Below, piece after piece: positions 22,146 through 28,503 of a stretch of DNA of 64,000 nt (position 1 is the stretch's first letter; the number at the start of each line of letters is the position of its first letter). The position numbers were made by a program, and so were the translations under genes. The stretch comes from Sphingomonas sp. So64.6b (GTDB taxonomy: Bacteria; Pseudomonadota; Alphaproteobacteria; Sphingomonadales; Sphingomonadaceae). Under the pieces are notes generated by a model. It was given only the letters and a program-made list of their open reading frames with translations, was not told the DNA's origin and did no database searches. The stretch spans positions 3,906,001 through 3,970,000 of the forward strand of contig NZ_CP048817.1 in NCBI RefSeq assembly GCF_014171475.1. Reading direction: 5' to 3'.

Positions 22146-23534
22146 TCAATCAAGCGGCACGAACCGCAGCGGCAACCCGTCCTTGGGCCGGGGAATCGGC
22201 CAGGCCTGCCATTCGTCGCCCGAACCCGCATCGAGTTCGATGCGGTAACGGCTCAGCAGTTGCGCCATCAGGATGCGGATTTGCATCGTCGCGAAGTGCA
22301 GTCCCAGGCACATATGCGCGCCGCCGCCGAATGGCACCCAGGCATATTTGTGCCGGCCCTTGCTTGCCTCCGGCGTGAAACGCAGCGGATCGAAAGCGGT
22401 CGGGTCGGGCCAGAGTTCGGGCATTTGATGGGTGTAGGCGATATTGACGCCGATAAAGGTGCCGGCCGGAATGTCGTAGCCGCCAAAGCTGAAGGCCTTC
22501 AGCGCGCGCCTCGGCAATGACGGAACCGGCGGGATCAGCCGCAGCGCTTCCTTGAAGGCATAATCGGTCAGCACCAACCGGTCGAGCTGCCCAGTCGGGA
22601 CGCCGCCGCCATCATTGAGGCCGAACGAGAGAATCTCCTCACGCAACCGGTCCTGCCATTCGACATGGCGGCCAAGCAGCATGACCAGGCTAGTCGCCGA
22701 CGAGGTGATCGTGTCGTGCGCGGCCATCATCAGGAAGTTCATATGATCGATGATCGCCGCGTCGCTCAGCGGCGCGCCGTCATCATCGACCGCCCGGCAG
22801 AATTGCGAGAAGAAATCCTGCCCCCCTTCTCGCTTGGCTCCATCCGCGCGCCGTTTGGGGATTTCGCGCGCGAACATCTCGCCGAGATATTCGCGCGCCT
22901 TGACGCCCTTGCGCATCATCGTGCCGGGCAGCGGGATCCGCACCGGGGCGATCGTTGCCTGAACCTCGTCGACGAACGCCTGGTTGATCCGGTCGGCCTC
23001 CTCGCCAAGCGGCATGCCGAGAAAGGCGTCGGCGGCAAGATCGAGCGTCAGCGCCTTTATCGCGTCGTAGAAATTGAGCGGCTTGTTGGCCCATCCGCTG
23101 ACCTGGTTGGCGATGCCGGCGTTCAGGCTTTCGGCATAATGCCGCATCGGTTCGGGTTTGAACGCGACCGACAATATCTTGCGGTCGGCACGGTGCTTTT
23201 CGAAATCCATCAGCATCAGCCCGCGCGGAAAGAGCAGGTTGAGCATCGGGCCCCAGCCCTGTTCCGACGAGAAGATCTTCTCGCGATCGAACAGTAGCAG
23301 TTCGTTCGCGTCGGGCCCAAGCAGCACGAGATTGGGCCCGCCGAAACTGTTGTTGCGATAGACCTTGCCATAGGTCGTCGCCATGCGCTTGCCGAAACCG
23401 ACCGGGTCCTTGAGCAGGCGCAGCGTGTTGCCGATGAAAGGCAGGCCGTTTTCGCCGGGAATCGCGCTCAGCGATCCCGGTTTCGGGCGGGGCAGCCAGT
23501 GCGGGTTCGCCTTGAAGCCGTGCGCATAAGCCAT
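22146..23534 (-). CDS. Cytochrome P450
   Basis: Soluble bacterial P450 of 462 residues. The heme loop is FGGGAHMCLGLHFA (axial Cys near 409), the I-helix oxygen motif is AAHDTITSS, and the ExxR pair is in FKEALRLIP. The N-terminal proline-rich PRPKPGSLSAIPGENGLPFIGN resembles the CYP51/CYP26/CYP120-like group, whose substrates include sterols and retinoids, but no substrate can be assigned. A GGGAG ribosome site precedes ATG 23534, and a perfect 8+8 bp palindrome covers the -10 region. No ferredoxin gene lies adjacent. The carotenoid hydroxylase crtZ lies 9.4 kb away and is not obviously linked. Confidence 0.93.
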   Translation of the reverse strand: MAYAHGFKANPHWLPRPKPGSLSAIPGENGLPFIGNTLRLLKDPVGFGKRMATTYGKVYRNNSFGGPNLVLLGPDANELLLFDREKIFSSEQGWGPMLNLLFPRGLMLMDFEKHRADRKILSVAFKPEPMRHYAESLNAGIANQVSGWANKPLNFYDAIKALTLDLAADAFLGMPLGEEADRINQAFVDEVQATIAPVRIPLPGTMMRKGVKAREYLGEMFAREIPKRRADGAKREGGQDFFSQFCRAVDDDGAPLSDAAIIDHMNFLMMAAHDTITSSATSLVMLLGRHVEWQDRLREEILSFGLNDGGGVPTGQLDRLVLTDYAFKEALRLIPPVPSLPRRALKAFSFGGYDIPAGTFIGVNIAYTHQMPELWPDPTAFDPLRFTPEASKGRHKYAWVPFGGGAHMCLGLHFATMQIRILMAQLLSRYRIELDAGSGDEWQAWPIPRPKDGLPLRFVPLD

Positions 23535-24071: not shown

Positions 24072-24607
24072 CCATACCTCCGCGCGCGCCAAGCGTCGGC
24101 GCTCTGCCCCCAATTGTCGACCGGGTCCGATTCGAATGGCGGCGGCAGGCGGGTCGGGCCGCGGTTGATGCCGCCGAGCCTGCGTGCAAGCGCGATCGAC
24201 GGCGCATTGTCGGGGTCGATCGAATGCATCACATCGTCCCAGCGCAGCACATCGACCGCATAATCGATTGCCGCGGCCGCCGCCTCGAACGCAAGGCCCT
24301 TGCCGGCAAATTCGGGCAGCACGCCCCATCCGACCTCAGTGCCCGGCCAGCCTTCCGGTTGCCAGGGGCCGGCGCGGCCGATCCAGCGCCCGCTGTCGCG
24401 TTCGACCAGCGAGAACATCGAAAAACCGCGGATCGACCAGGCACCGGCCATCGCGCACAGCCCGCGCCAAGCGAGGCTGCGCGGCTGCACGCCGCCGAGA
24501 AACCGCATCGCCATCTCGTCGGCGTGGAAGCGTGCCCAATCCTCGAAATCCTCCACGGCGACCGGCCGCAAGATCAGGCGTTCGGTGAACAGCACGGGCA
24601 GGGTCAT
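24068..24607 (-). CDS. GNAT family acetyltransferase (RimJ/RimL type)
   Basis: A 179-residue GNAT protein of the RimJ/L-like group: TERLILRPVAVEDFEDWARFH at the start, IGRAGPW and EVGWGVLPEFAGKGLAFEAA (acetyl-CoA loop) in the middle, and SIDPDNAPSIALARRLG near the end. The start shares one base with the ribH stop (24607), so it is co-translated. It may acetylate a protein N-terminus or a small molecule; a link to flavin metabolism is suggested only by position. Confidence 0.88.
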   Translation of the reverse strand: MTLPVLFTERLILRPVAVEDFEDWARFHADEMAMRFLGGVQPRSLAWRGLCAMAGAWSIRGFSMFSLVERDSGRWIGRAGPWQPEGWPGTEVGWGVLPEFAGKGLAFEAAAAAIDYAVDVLRWDDVMHSIDPDNAPSIALARRLGGINRGPTRLPPPFESDPVDNWGQSADAWRARRYG

Positions 24608-25026
24608 CAGCCGAAGCGGCTTTTCAATTCGAACATGGCGATCGCTGCCTTGGCCGCCTCGCCGCCCTTGTCCTTTTCGGTGGGACGCGCACGCGTGAGC
24701 GCCTGCGCCTCATTCTCGACGGTCAGGATACCGTTGCCGATCGCGACACCGTCCATCGACAGCGCCATCAGCCCGCGCGCGCTTTCACCCGCGACGATCT
24801 CGAAATGATAGGTCTCGCCGCGAATCACGACGCCGAGCGCGACAAAGCCATCATAGGCGCCGCTATCCGCGGCCAGGGCCACGGCACCGGGAATCTCCAG
24901 CGCGCCAGGGACGGTGATCGTCTCATGACTGTGTCCGGCAGTTTCGATCACAGCGCGGGCGCCCTCGATCAGCAGGTCGTTGAGATGGTCGTAGAAGCGT
25001 GCCTCGACGATCAGGAATTTTGCCAC
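24607..25026 (-). CDS. ribH: 6,7-dimethyl-8-ribityllumazine synthase
   Basis: Condenses 5-amino-6-ribitylaminouracil with 3,4-dihydroxy-2-butanone 4-phosphate, the penultimate riboflavin step. The 139-residue protein shows [15 protein letters not shown], the substrate loop [27 protein letters not shown] (catalytic His in the RGET-x-HF block) and the phosphate loop [10 protein letters not shown]. The start is GTG 25026 with AAGGAC upstream; the longer frame lies mostly in the CYTH gene. Length fits the small pentameric or icosahedral forms. Confidence 0.95.
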
Positions 25027-25028
25027 GT

Positions 25029-25550
25029 TTAGTCCTTGGGAAGTCCGAAATGGGAAAGTGCGCCACCTTGATAGCGCGGGTCGTCGCTGATGTCGCGTAT
25101 CGCCCAAATCGGCGATGGCAAAGCGCGCAGGCCGGCATCGTCGGGCCATTCGATCTCTGCAAGTTCAAGCGGGGCCAGTAACCCAAGAAACTGATCGATG
25201 CTGAAAATATTTGCCCCGCCAGTCACCTCGAAGCGGCGCTTGGTCAGCGAGGCGCCCGGAAGACGATCGAACACGGCGAATTCGGCTTCGCTCAGATAGG
25301 CGGTGACGATCGGACGCGCGAGAGGATCGGTGACGTCATATTTCTTGGTGAGCTTGAGCGAACATGCGCCAGTCATACTGTCAGTCATGCGGCGCAGTCT
25401 TAGACGGGTGCTCGTGATATAACGGTCTTCGATCAGCGTGAAGGGTTGCGCCGAAAGATCCGGTCGTGATGCAGGATCGACCAGCCAGCGGCGTTCGCGC
25501 TCGATATGGGCATATTTCGGATCGCGCGCTTCATCGACGCCCGAGCGCAT
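25029..25550 (-). CDS. CYTH-domain (triphosphate tunnel) protein in the riboflavin operon
   Basis: A 173-residue CYTH superfamily protein. The signature at residues 17-21 is EREXX ([10 protein letters not shown], a variant of ExExK), followed by alternating charged strands RLRLRR, LKLTKKY, KRRFEV and the acidic LELAEIEWP, as expected for a triphosphate-binding tunnel. Members hydrolyse triphosphates (inorganic or nucleoside). The ATG shares one base with the HTH-ribBX stop (25550), and ribH begins 3 nt after its end, so it is embedded in a riboflavin operon. No role in flavin synthesis is known for this family. Confidence 0.82.
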
Positions 25551-26851
25551 TATTCGCCTCCGGTCCCCGGAATCGCGCGCTCGCCGACGATCGACAGGCC
25601 ATAACCATCGAGGCCAACCAATGTGTGATGCGTATTGGTCAGTAACACCATGTCCTGCACGCCAAGCTCGGCGAGAATCTGCGCGCCGACGCCATAGTCG
25701 CGCAGTTCCTCGATCTCCGGCGCACCCGCGCCCTTGCCTTCACCACGCAGCTTGATGAAGCGCGACAGGCTGTCCTTCATCGGGCGGTTGATCACCACGA
25801 TCACGCCCGACCCGGCTTCCGCGATCATTTCCATCGATCGCGACAACAGGCCCGACCGCTCCGACGTCTCGCCAAACATGTCGACGAAATAGGATGCGGT
25901 ATGCATCCGTACGAGCGTCGGGGCTTCGGGATCGATATAGCCCTTCACCAGCGCGATCGTCTCATCGCCGCTGGCTTTGTTGAAGAAGGTCATCGCGCGC
26001 CAGTCGCCGCCCCATTTGCTCTCGAACACCATTTCCGCGCGCTTCTCGACCAGATGGTCGTGCTTGCGGCGATAGGCGATCAGGTCGCGGATCGTGCCCA
26101 TCTTCAGATTGTGCAGCCGGGCAAAGGCGACGAGGTCGTCCATCCGCGCCATGGTGCCGTCGTCCTTCATGATCTCGCAGATCACGCCCGACGGGTTGAG
26201 CCCGGCGAGCCGCGCGACATCGACAGCCGCCTCGGTATGGCCGGCACGGACCAGCACGCCGCCATCGCGTGCGACCAGCGGGAAGACATGGCCTGGAGTA
26301 ACAATGTCCTCCTTGCCCTTGCCCGCATCGATCGCGACCGAGATGGTACGCGCACGATCGGCGGCGGAAATGCCCGTGGTCACGCCCTCGCGTGCCTCGA
26401 TCGAGGTGGTGAAGGCGGTTTCGTGCCGCGTGCCATTGGCGCGGCTCATGAGTTCGAGACCGAGCGCGTCGACCCGCGTCTTGGTCATCGACAAACAGAT
26501 CAACCCGCGGCCGTGCGTCGCCATGAAATTGATCGCATCGGGCGTCGCCATCTGCGCCGGGATGATCAGATCGCCTTCATTTTCGCGGTCTTCGTCATCG
26601 ACCAGGATGAACATGCGTCCGTTGCGTGCTTCGTCAATGATCTCCTCGATCGAAACCAGAGCCGGCGTATCGTCATTCGAGAAGATGAAGGTCTCGAGCT
26701 TGCGCAATGTATCGGCGGTCGGGTTCCAGTCGGACTGGTCGAGATCCCGCAATGTGTTGGCATGAAGCCCCGCCGCACGGGCGAGGCCGGAACGCGACAT
26801 GCCACCATCAGTGACGAGGGCGCGCAGCTTTTCGATCAATTGGGTGCTCAT
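25550..26851 (-). CDS. ribB: HTH-RibB fused to a degenerate RibA half (RibBX-type)
   Basis: A 433-residue protein in three parts. Residues 1-60 look like an XRE-type helix-turn-helix (MSRSGLARAAGLHANTLRDL, then TADTLRKLETF). Residues about 67-262 are 3,4-dihydroxy-2-butanone-4-phosphate synthase, with the acidic motif VDDEDRENEGDLI (83-95) and the RAGHTEAAVD histidine (205), which make the four-carbon unit from ribulose 5-phosphate. Residues about 272-428 resemble GTP cyclohydrolase II, but the zinc cysteines are replaced (RMHTASYFVDMFGETSERSG), so this half should be inactive, as in RibBX proteins; YGVGAQIL is kept. A separate RibA must therefore exist elsewhere. Its own promoter with an ATCACAT/ATGTGAT palindrome lies just upstream, and no ribosome site is visible, suggesting leaderless mRNA. 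Confidence 0.9.
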   Translation of the reverse strand: MSTQLIEKLRALVTDGGMSRSGLARAAGLHANTLRDLDQSDWNPTADTLRKLETFIFSNDDTPALVSIEEIIDEARNGRMFILVDDEDRENEGDLIIPAQMATPDAINFMATHGRGLICLSMTKTRVDALGLELMSRANGTRHETAFTTSIEAREGVTTGISAADRARTISVAIDAGKGKEDIVTPGHVFPLVARDGGVLVRAGHTEAAVDVARLAGLNPSGVICEIMKDDGTMARMDDLVAFARLHNLKMGTIRDLIAYRRKHDHLVEKRAEMVFESKWGGDWRAMTFFNKASGDETIALVKGYIDPEAPTLVRMHTASYFVDMFGETSERSGLLSRSMEMIAEAGSGVIVVINRPMKDSLSRFIKLRGEGKGAGAPEIEELRDYGVGAQILAELGVQDMVLLTNTHHTLVGLDGYGLSIVGERAIPGTGGE

Positions 26852-26858
26852 GCGCCGA

Positions 26859-26901
26859 TCTAAATCACATCACAATGTGATCGTCAATAAACAAATCACA
26901 T
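26859..26901 (-). promoter_or_regulatory. Leaderless promoter with palindromic operator for HTH-ribBX
   Basis: On the minus strand, -35 TTGACG (26887-26882) and -10 TTTAGA (26864-26859) are 17 nt apart. The spacer is an inverted repeat, ATCACAT (26864-26870) and ATGTGAT (26875-26881). A third ATCACAT is at 26895-26901, 31 bp from the first in the same orientation. Transcription would start about at the ATG (26851). Confidence 0.65.
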
Positions 26902-26919: not shown

Positions 26920-27537
26920 TCAGGTCGGCAGCAACTGTCGCATCCGGCCGAGATAACGTGCCAGCACATCGATCTCGATATTGATCGCATGGCCGGCCTC
27001 CAGCGTATCGAATGTGGTGACCGCGGCGGTATGCGGGATGATATTGACGCCGATCGTCACGCGACCATCATTGTCCTCCACCTCGTTCACGGTCAGCGAC
27101 ACGCCATCGAGCGTGATCGATCCCTTGGCTGCCACAAAGGGTGCGATATCGGGGCCCGCGGAAATGCGCACTCGTTTGGATCCCCCTTCGTCGGCAATCG
27201 ATACGACCTCGCCGATGCCATCGACATGACCGGTGACGATATGGCCGCCCAATTCTTCGCCCAGCCTCAGCGCGCGCTCCAGGTTGAGTCGCCGCCCCTC
27301 GGTCCATTGGCCTTGTGCTGTGCGGCTGATCGTTTCGGCCGAGACGTCGACCGCGAACCAGCCGGGCGCGCCGCTCGCGGACTTGTCGACCACCGTCAGA
27401 CACACGCCGGAGCATGAGATCGACGCACCGAGATCGACCGTATCCATGTCGTAAGCGGTCGCGATGCGCAGGCGCATATCGCCCTGCATCTCGATCGCCA
27501 TGATCGTGCCGATATCGGTGATGATGCCAGTGAACAT
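26920..27537 (-). CDS. ribE: Riboflavin synthase alpha subunit
   Basis: Dismutates two 6,7-dimethyl-8-ribityllumazine molecules to riboflavin. The 205-residue protein has the two tandem lumazine-binding barrels: MFTGIITDIG, CSGVCLTVVD and, in the second barrel, GHIVTGHVDGIG, GSITLDGVSLTVNEV and IGVNIIPHT. Its start directly follows the ribD stop (27538) without a gap, so ribD-ribE is one unit. A 68-nt gap with a promoter separates it from HTH-ribBX. Confidence 0.95.
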   Translation of the reverse strand: MFTGIITDIGTIMAIEMQGDMRLRIATAYDMDTVDLGASISCSGVCLTVVDKSASGAPGWFAVDVSAETISRTAQGQWTEGRRLNLERALRLGEELGGHIVTGHVDGIGEVVSIADEGGSKRVRISAGPDIAPFVAAKGSITLDGVSLTVNEVEDNDGRVTIGVNIIPHTAAVTTFDTLEAGHAINIEIDVLARYLGRMRQLLPT

Positions 27538-28503
27538 TCAGACGGGCTCCGCAACGCGCTTGTCAACCTGGCGCTCGTAGACTTCGAGCCGGTCGCTGCC
27601 AAGCATGCGGCTGTCGGCGAGCCACCACCGGCCGTGCGCGTCGGCCAGATCGCCGAGGCCGATGTCGGGTAGGGTGCGGCCGCCGCCGACAATGATCGGA
27701 GCACGGTAGAGCAACAGGCGATCGACCAAGTCGGCAGAGAGGAAAGCAGCTGCGGTTTGCACGCCGCCCTCTACGAGCAGGTGATCGACGCCCGAAAGTA
27801 CGGCAACCTGTTCTGGCGCGGCGATATGTTCCCAGCCATCTTCCGGTGCGGCCGACAACAGGATGCGGCGCGGGCTGCGCTGTTCGAGTCCGGCCAAGCG
27901 GACGTCGAGCACCGGCGAATCGGCTTGCCAGGTGCCGCGTCCGACCAGGATCGCCTCGTGCCGCGACCGCTCGAGATGGGCGTGAGCGCGCGCCTCGGGA
28001 CCGGTGATCCATCGGCTCGATCCGTCGGCCAGCGCGGTTGCACCGTCGAGCGACAGCGCCAGTTTCAACGTTACGAACGGCCGGCTAAGCGCCTGGCGCA
28101 ACAGGAATCCGGCAATCGAACGCCGTGCCTCGACCGCGCGAAGACCATTGGAGACCGCGATGCCGGCATCCCTCAGCCTGGCGATGCCAAGGCCGTCAGT
28201 GCGGGGATCGGGGTCGCGGATCGCAACCACGACGCGCGCCACGCCCGCGGCGATCAGCGAATCGGCGCAAGCCGGCCCGCGCGGCGAGGCATGTGCACAG
28301 GGTTCCAGCGTGACGTAACAGGTTGCACCGCGTGCATCGTCACCGGCCGCCGCCAGCGCCATCGCCTCGGCATGGGGGCGCCCGCCCGGCTGGGTCCAGC
28401 CGCGCCCGAGGACGCGCCCGTCGCTGACGATAACACAACCGACATTGGGATTGGGTGCGGTACGGCCGCGACCGCGCTCGGCAAGGGCGAGCGCGGCGGC
28501 CAT
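27538..28503 (-). CDS. ribD: Bifunctional pyrimidine deaminase/reductase RibD
   Basis: Catalyses deamination and side-chain reduction of 2,5-diamino-6-ribosylaminopyrimidinone phosphate. The N-terminal zinc deaminase has PHAEAMAL and CYVTLEPCAHASPRGPACADSL; the reductase half has ALSLDGATALADGSSRWITG and VEGGVQTAAAFL. The length of 321 residues is slightly short because the protein begins directly with MAAALALAERG; the frame is open a little further upstream but offers only non-standard starts, so a CTG start giving a few extra residues is possible. No FMN riboswitch was found upstream. Confidence 0.93.
   Translation of the reverse strand: MAAALALAERGRGRTAPNPNVGCVIVSDGRVLGRGWTQPGGRPHAEAMALAAAGDDARGATCYVTLEPCAHASPRGPACADSLIAAGVARVVVAIRDPDPRTDGLGIARLRDAGIAVSNGLRAVEARRSIAGFLLRQALSRPFVTLKLALSLDGATALADGSSRWITGPEARAHAHLERSRHEAILVGRGTWQADSPVLDVRLAGLEQRSPRRILLSAAPEDGWEHIAAPEQVAVLSGVDHLLVEGGVQTAAAFLSADLVDRLLLYRAPIIVGGGRTLPDIGLGDLADAHGRWWLADSRMLGSDRLEVYERQVDKRVAEPV

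Follow-up and report, generated by a model that had tools for sequence, protein, structure and literature searches.

HTH-RibBX of Sphingomonadaceae, a probable self-repressing riboflavin enzyme with an operator of its own

HTH-RibBX is a riboflavin-synthesis protein in which an N-terminal helix-turn-helix (HTH) precedes a DHBP synthase (RibB) domain and a degenerate RibA-like domain. In Sphingomonadaceae, the HTH and a palindromic operator at the start of ribB occur together. An operator matching at least 10 of 14 consensus positions is found at 182 of 182 HTH-bearing genes and at 0 of 29 HTH-less genes (211 Sphingomonadaceae genomes having the gene). Comparative genomics makes it probable that HTH-RibBX is a trigger enzyme that represses its own gene, ribB, together with the genes that follow. 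RibB joined to a dead RibA half is the already known RibBX, and the new part is the HTH. The window, a stretch of 64,000 nucleotides from Sphingomonas sp. So64.6b, carries one such gene, with the following parts.

25550..26851, minus strand: HTH-RibBX protein, 433 aa (open reading frame 26851→25550, ATG start)
26672..26851, minus strand: XRE/Cro-type helix-turn-helix, N-terminal, residues 1-60
26744..26770, minus strand: presumed recognition-helix region, residues 28-36 (G28, L29, H30, N32, L34, R35)
26072..26647, minus strand: DHBP synthase (RibB) domain, residues 69-260, by family match
25580..26041, minus strand: RibA-like "X" domain, residues 271-424, which has lost the zinc cysteines and the QEGRGIG motif

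A domain search of the window's open reading frames identifies residues 69-260 as DHBP synthase (E 1.9e-83) and residues 271-424 as a GTP-cyclohydrolase-II-like domain (E 9.6e-33). The RibB half looks intact, with conserved motifs and invariant blocks in a 55-row alignment, and this half is apparently active. The C...CDC cysteines and the QEGRGIG block are absent from the RibA-like half and present in true RibBA relatives, such as those at L081 and L089. This confirms the loss of the zinc cysteines pointed out in the preliminary description. The RibA-like half is equally degenerate in HTH-less relatives. A search for a separate ribA, which that description had proposed, found a separate RibA with CLTGDVLGSLKCDCG and QEGRGIG beyond the window, at G000:C1:4024544-4025032. 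The genome's true RibA (L001:1429-2463, minus strand) matches PRK08815 along its full length, below the PRK08815 cut-off, and its approximately 155 N-terminal residues have no Pfam family match.

The approximately 60 extra N-terminal residues of the DHBP synthase had been read as an XRE-type HTH, and this observation holds. When residues 1-60 are scored, HTH_3, HTH_26 and HTH_31 are matched at the level of the family (39-54 of 77 members at E<=0.1, best 1.1e-5), and the HTH in the window protein's own full-length sequence scores below the Pfam cut-offs in a single-sequence search. A PDB profile search did not pick up XRE for the HTH region. The residues G28, L29, H30, N32, L34 and R35 are invariant in all 77 aligned HTH pieces. 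A vestigial or structural HTH, that is, a relic extension that does not bind DNA, would be in keeping with its absence from 29 of the 211 family genomes that have the gene. Such a relic is very improbable given the invariance of the presumed recognition helix, the conservation of the operator, and an identity to the window protein that is higher for the HTH (0.64) than for the RibX half (0.55) across 11 HTH-bearing relatives.

The distribution of the fusion was followed in 296 genomes of the order, composed of 213 Sphingomonadaceae (in the GTDB sense) and 83 genomes of other families. A RibB match is present in 289 of the 296. Among 150 family loci, 126 align from residue 1-8 (HTH present) and 24 from residue 65-67 (HTH absent). 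The remaining 63 family genomes include 56 with the HTH, 5 without it and 2 without a RibB match. The fusion first noticed in the window is therefore found on ribB in 182 of the 211 Sphingomonadaceae genomes having the gene. Outside the family, the 83 genomes of the order showed no HTH-RibB; two of their RibB matches (G093 and G070) start early, and the one that was read, G093, has no HTH. In a class-wide search of 289 genomes, only the window's own genome and two of the same family align from residue 1-2 among the matches listed; 12 listed matches from other families start before residue 50, and none of the 8 that were read has an HTH. In a 50-row tree (30 loci of the family search, 14 named rows and 6 outgroup rows), the HTH-less rows nest among HTH-bearing rows. 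Parsimony gives 5-6 changes of the HTH label, of which only 2-3 are forced by well-supported branches. One gain with several losses fits this tree, though not decisively.

The operator and the promoter elements around it lie directly upstream of the start codon.

26864..26881, minus strand: operator O1, ATCACAT-N4-ATGTGAT, 14 of 14 consensus positions
26882..26887, minus strand: -35-like TTGACG, abutting O1, of presumed function
26858..26863, minus strand: -10-like TTAGAT, 6 nt before the ATG, of presumed function; a consensus promoter scan did not call TTAGAT
26895..26901, minus strand: extra half-site ATGTGAT, which forms the right half of a second, degenerate operator lying 31 bp upstream of O1

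The operator palindrome ATCACATtgtgATGTGAT lies between the -35-like and -10-like boxes of the ribB promoter. A gene was counted as having an operator when at least 10 of 14 positions of ATCACAT-N4-ATGTGAT matched within -130..+20 of its start. This rule was set on the first 126 HTH-bearing and 24 HTH-less genes and was left unchanged for the remaining 56 and 5. The first set has the operator at 126/126 HTH-bearing and 0/24 HTH-less genes (best HTH-less score 9), and the set scored after the rule was fixed has it at 56/56 (lowest score 11) and 0/5 (best score 8). In two windows farther upstream of the HTH-bearing genes, that score is attained by 1 and 3 of the first 126 genes and by 1 and 0 of the later 56. 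Across the 126 sites, CACA and TGTG are near-invariant. Because the HTH and the operator share one locus, part of their correlation is shared descent. As the genomes are themselves related by descent, the operator counts do not represent independent events.

The exact 12-base core is found near 70/126 and 34/56 HTH-bearing genes. It is present as a single copy in this 5.06 Mb genome, 13 bp before the ribB start codon, where about 0.08 copies per genome are expected by composition. A whole-genome scan found the exact core in 112 of 296 genomes, mostly as one copy each, and a reversed-pattern control in 5 of 296. None of the 29 HTH-less family genomes contains it. Six of the 112 genomes belong to other families, and the four of these that were read (G081, G063, G048, G032) have no rib gene at the site. 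Among 20 regions that hold an extra exact site, the sites in 10 precede an HTH-RibB start, as does the one in G175, and the one in G025 is the membrane-protein site described below. The extra exact sites in G193, G100, G156, G280, G081, G063, G048 and G032 have no adjoining rib gene, some are inside long ORFs, and they are probably due to chance. A one-mismatch site elsewhere in the window's genome (L114) was rejected, as the region reads as coding. A palindrome with a 3-nt spacer misses the site; the spacer is 4 nt.

The half-site of CRP is TGTGA, and the operator half-site resembles it. The operator could belong to another regulator, for example of the CRP/FNR type, leaving the HTH a different role such as protein contact. 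This is decidedly unlikely. The orientation is reversed (TCACA-N6-TGTGA), and the CRP-type site TGTGA-N6-TCACA has no 10/10 match in the 126 upstream regions, the best match being 6-7/10 in 112 of them, 8 in 11 and 9 in 3. Moreover, site and HTH are either both present or both absent in 211/211 family genomes having the gene.

The order on the minus strand is TTGACG (26887-26882), operator (26881-26864), TTAGAT (26863-26858), six bases and the ATG (26851). Promoter geometry was counted in the first 126 HTH-bearing genes. In 70 of them, 11 or 12 bp separate the operator end from the ATG taken as the start. A -35 box with 5-6 matches is present at 34/126 sites (about 6 in shuffles), and a simple -10 rule finds no -10-like hexamer at 65/126. 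An extra ATGTGAT-like half-site lies upstream in 87/126, mostly at -20/-21, compared with about 7 in shuffles. At offsets of -32 and -31, three helical turns away, a second operator reaches 9/14 at 31 and 28 of the 126 sites, and at 0-5 for other offsets. This arrangement of two operators suggests cooperative binding of two dimers. A second operator upstream of the -35 box is also in a place that activators use, and HTH-RibBX might activate rather than repress. An activator is unlikely, as the main operator in the window fills the spacer between -35 and -10, which is the classic position of a repressor.

The -10-like box is so near the ATG that the ribB mRNA in the window is probably leaderless, judging from the promoter position. 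Such an mRNA would have no room for a riboswitch. The spacing to ribE differs with the HTH: 25-40 nt separate the ribE stop from the RibB core in 24/24 HTH-less genes, and the gap before the HTH start is at least 43 nt in the HTH-bearing genes with ribE recognised upstream (39/126). In the window, ribB has the following neighbours.

27538..28503, minus strand: ribD, upstream of ribB
26920..27537, minus strand: ribE, riboflavin synthase, upstream of ribB
25029..25550, minus strand: ORF of 173 aa, whose start codon overlaps the ribB stop
24607..25044, minus strand: ribH, lumazine synthase, downstream of ribB in the same direction

The 173-aa ORF has no Pfam or NCBIfam family match; its start is reminiscent of the CYTH signature. 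A cytochrome P450 gene lies downstream of the rib cluster (window 22146-23534, minus strand). In two relatives, a flavin-reductase-like gene is divergent from HTH-ribB (L238:4887-5405 and L239:2130-2639, both plus strand), assigned by PF01613 for the L238 copy and by resemblance for the L239 copy.

Proteins of the DHBP synthase family are homodimers. An HTH-RibBX dimer would bind ATCACATtgtgATGTGAT, in the -35/-10 spacer of the promoter that drives its gene, and block RNA polymerase. In some relatives, the second operator three helical turns upstream is probably bound too, perhaps cooperatively. Binding would limit transcription of ribB and of the downstream genes up to ribH, provided that these are co-transcribed. 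Because the promoter would yield an essentially leaderless mRNA, control would act on the DNA and not, as in many other bacteria, through an FMN riboswitch.

An Rfam scan of the window found no FMN riboswitch or other element at gathering score. With strict filters that lose weak matches, the FMN riboswitch RF00050 is found in 0 of 213 Sphingomonadaceae genomes and in 16 of the 296 genomes of the order, all in other families (16/83). With the same strict filters, the other 67 of these 83 genomes likewise have no RF00050 match. To say that the HTH replaced the riboswitch is therefore loose, since 67 of the 83 other-family genomes have no riboswitch match and HTH-RibB was seen in none of the 83.

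In G025, whose rib genes are rearranged, the gene of a small membrane protein is preceded by an exact operator.

L238:1652-1906, minus strand: 84-aa half-PnuC-like membrane protein (weak PF04973, E 0.022), with an operator at L238:2001

This protein is a candidate riboflavin transporter of the RibM/PnuX kind. Half-PnuC-like relatives are found at L262, L266-L268, L270, L274 and L276-L278, often just behind ribH. Of 30 homologues, 9 follow a ribH motif at a distance of 238-303 bp and 4 at 1131-1166 bp. A general regulon that includes this gene was rejected. Sixty-two genomes have a homologue, and all of the 30 homologues that were scanned lack an operator of at least 10/14 within 300 bp upstream; only the G025 copy has one.

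Repression would most likely be gated by a pathway metabolite, such as a flavin nucleotide, GTP, Ru5P or DHBP, with the RibX half or the active site as its point of action. The preliminary description had proposed an enzyme-repressor with the dead RibA half as its effector sensor. The enzyme-repressor is strongly supported by comparative genomics, that is, by the co-occurrence of operator and HTH, from which we infer binding and repression. The sensor is not specifically supported: the same half is present in HTH-less relatives and is the X domain of the known RibBX. The X half was thus not made for the repressor, and fusion to the HTH is uninformative on ligand sensing in a half that is just as degenerate without it. 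The dead RibA half is nevertheless a possible sensor, because work on Shewanella oneidensis, cited in the available portion of PMC10012899, reports that RibB is regulated by its X domain through a mechanism that is unexplained there.

It may instead be that autoregulation needs no effector, the HTH merely holding the dose of RibB constant and no flavin or other metabolite altering its binding. We regard this as possible, though doubtful. The RibX half is degenerate whether or not an HTH is attached, and the exact core is mostly single copy in the genomes that have one, as would be in line with such a simple loop. On the other side are the X domain of S. oneidensis, reported to regulate RibB (via PMC10012899, as far as its available text goes), and trigger enzymes such as PutA, which the accessible part of PMC8249747 describes as regulators in the absence of their substrate.

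Related HTHs, on proteins other than RibB, came up in the search of the 83 other-family genomes.

L380:694-2163 and L381:612-2090, minus strand: HTH-CoaBC fusions (proteins P0121-P0124)
L382:946-1230, minus strand: lone Cro-like HTH of 84-94 aa in G013, 42% identical to the RibB HTH

In G034 and G085, both of a sister family, CoaBC (DFP and Flavoprotein domains) has a fused HTH that is 41 and 43% identical, respectively, to the RibB HTH. Such fusions are present in 2 of 29 genomes of the sister family, and 4 are among the 120 homologues listed. Upstream of HTH-CoaBC, the ribB operator is matched at no more than 8/14 positions in G034 and 10/14 in the AT-rich DNA of G085. The lone HTH of G013 reads as divergent from a CI-like gene. 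Two exact CGCAT-N4-ATGCG palindromes lie at its start (L382:1214-1227 and 1243-1256), where 0.04 are expected; 2 copies occur in 1 of 200 shuffles. These palindromes and the RibB operator have the same 4-nt spacer and the same CAT/ATG core. This one case supports the view that HTHs of this group recognise CAT-N4-ATG palindromes and were taken over from a Cro-like protein.

A wider reading joins these observations. Riboflavin synthesis in Sphingomonadaceae might be under protein feedback, in which the dead RibA half of HTH-RibBX senses flavin as the end product (or GTP) and the loaded protein clamps the operators of a leaderless promoter, doing the job of the FMN riboswitch. The HTH, akin to the Cro-like protein of G013 and the HTH of CoaBC, would then serve as a portable module by which enzymes that make cofactors become their own repressors. 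This reading is tentative, and we would not wager on it as a whole.

If the autorepressor is real, a large and common bacterial family runs vitamin B2 synthesis by a self-repressing enzyme rather than by the FMN riboswitch known from textbooks. Bacteria would then have a trigger enzyme for riboflavin whose operator is already in hand. The X domain of RibBX, so far unexplained, could be approached by screening ligands for their effect on DNA binding. If the sensor reading is true as well, this puzzling domain gains a function. The related HTH on CoaBC hints at the same trick for coenzyme A. A weak literature search, covering titles and abstract starts among the matches listed from openly licensed papers, found no description of HTH-RibB or its operator.

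RibBX, XRE repressors, trigger enzymes and the archaeal riboflavin kinase-regulator are already known. RibBX of S. oneidensis and A. salmonicida, and of A. baumannii (PDB 6MNZ), shares the RibB and degenerate RibA halves, with a separate ribA elsewhere in the genome. The portion of PMC10012899 available mentions no N-terminal HTH in RibBX and states that A. salmonicida RibBX complements ribB and not ribA. HTH-RibBX has about 64 extra residues, and the 6MNZ chain, from a PDB entry named RibBX, aligns only with its residues 65-422. The HTH resembles the XRE/Cro-type repressors and C-proteins DdrO, C.Esp1396I and P22 c2, whereas its partner domain in HTH-RibBX is a metabolic enzyme. HTH-CoaBC likewise has a related HTH on a cofactor-biosynthesis enzyme, but the enzyme is CoaBC instead of RibB and the fusion is rare. 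Archaeal RbkR is a riboflavin kinase with an HTH. It is called "bifunctional as gene regulator and enzyme" in the accessible text of PMC8305020 and, like the proposed HTH-RibBX, unites a riboflavin-pathway enzyme with a regulator. RbkR is archaeal, whereas the enzyme of HTH-RibBX is a DHBP synthase without a riboflavin kinase domain. The FMN riboswitch (RF00050), described in part of a source as feedback control of rib genes in other bacteria such as B. subtilis, serves that function through RNA, unlike HTH-RibBX. The trigger enzymes PutA, BirA and NadR combine an enzyme and a DNA-binding regulator in one chain (PMC8249747, available portion), but they are other enzymes of other pathways.
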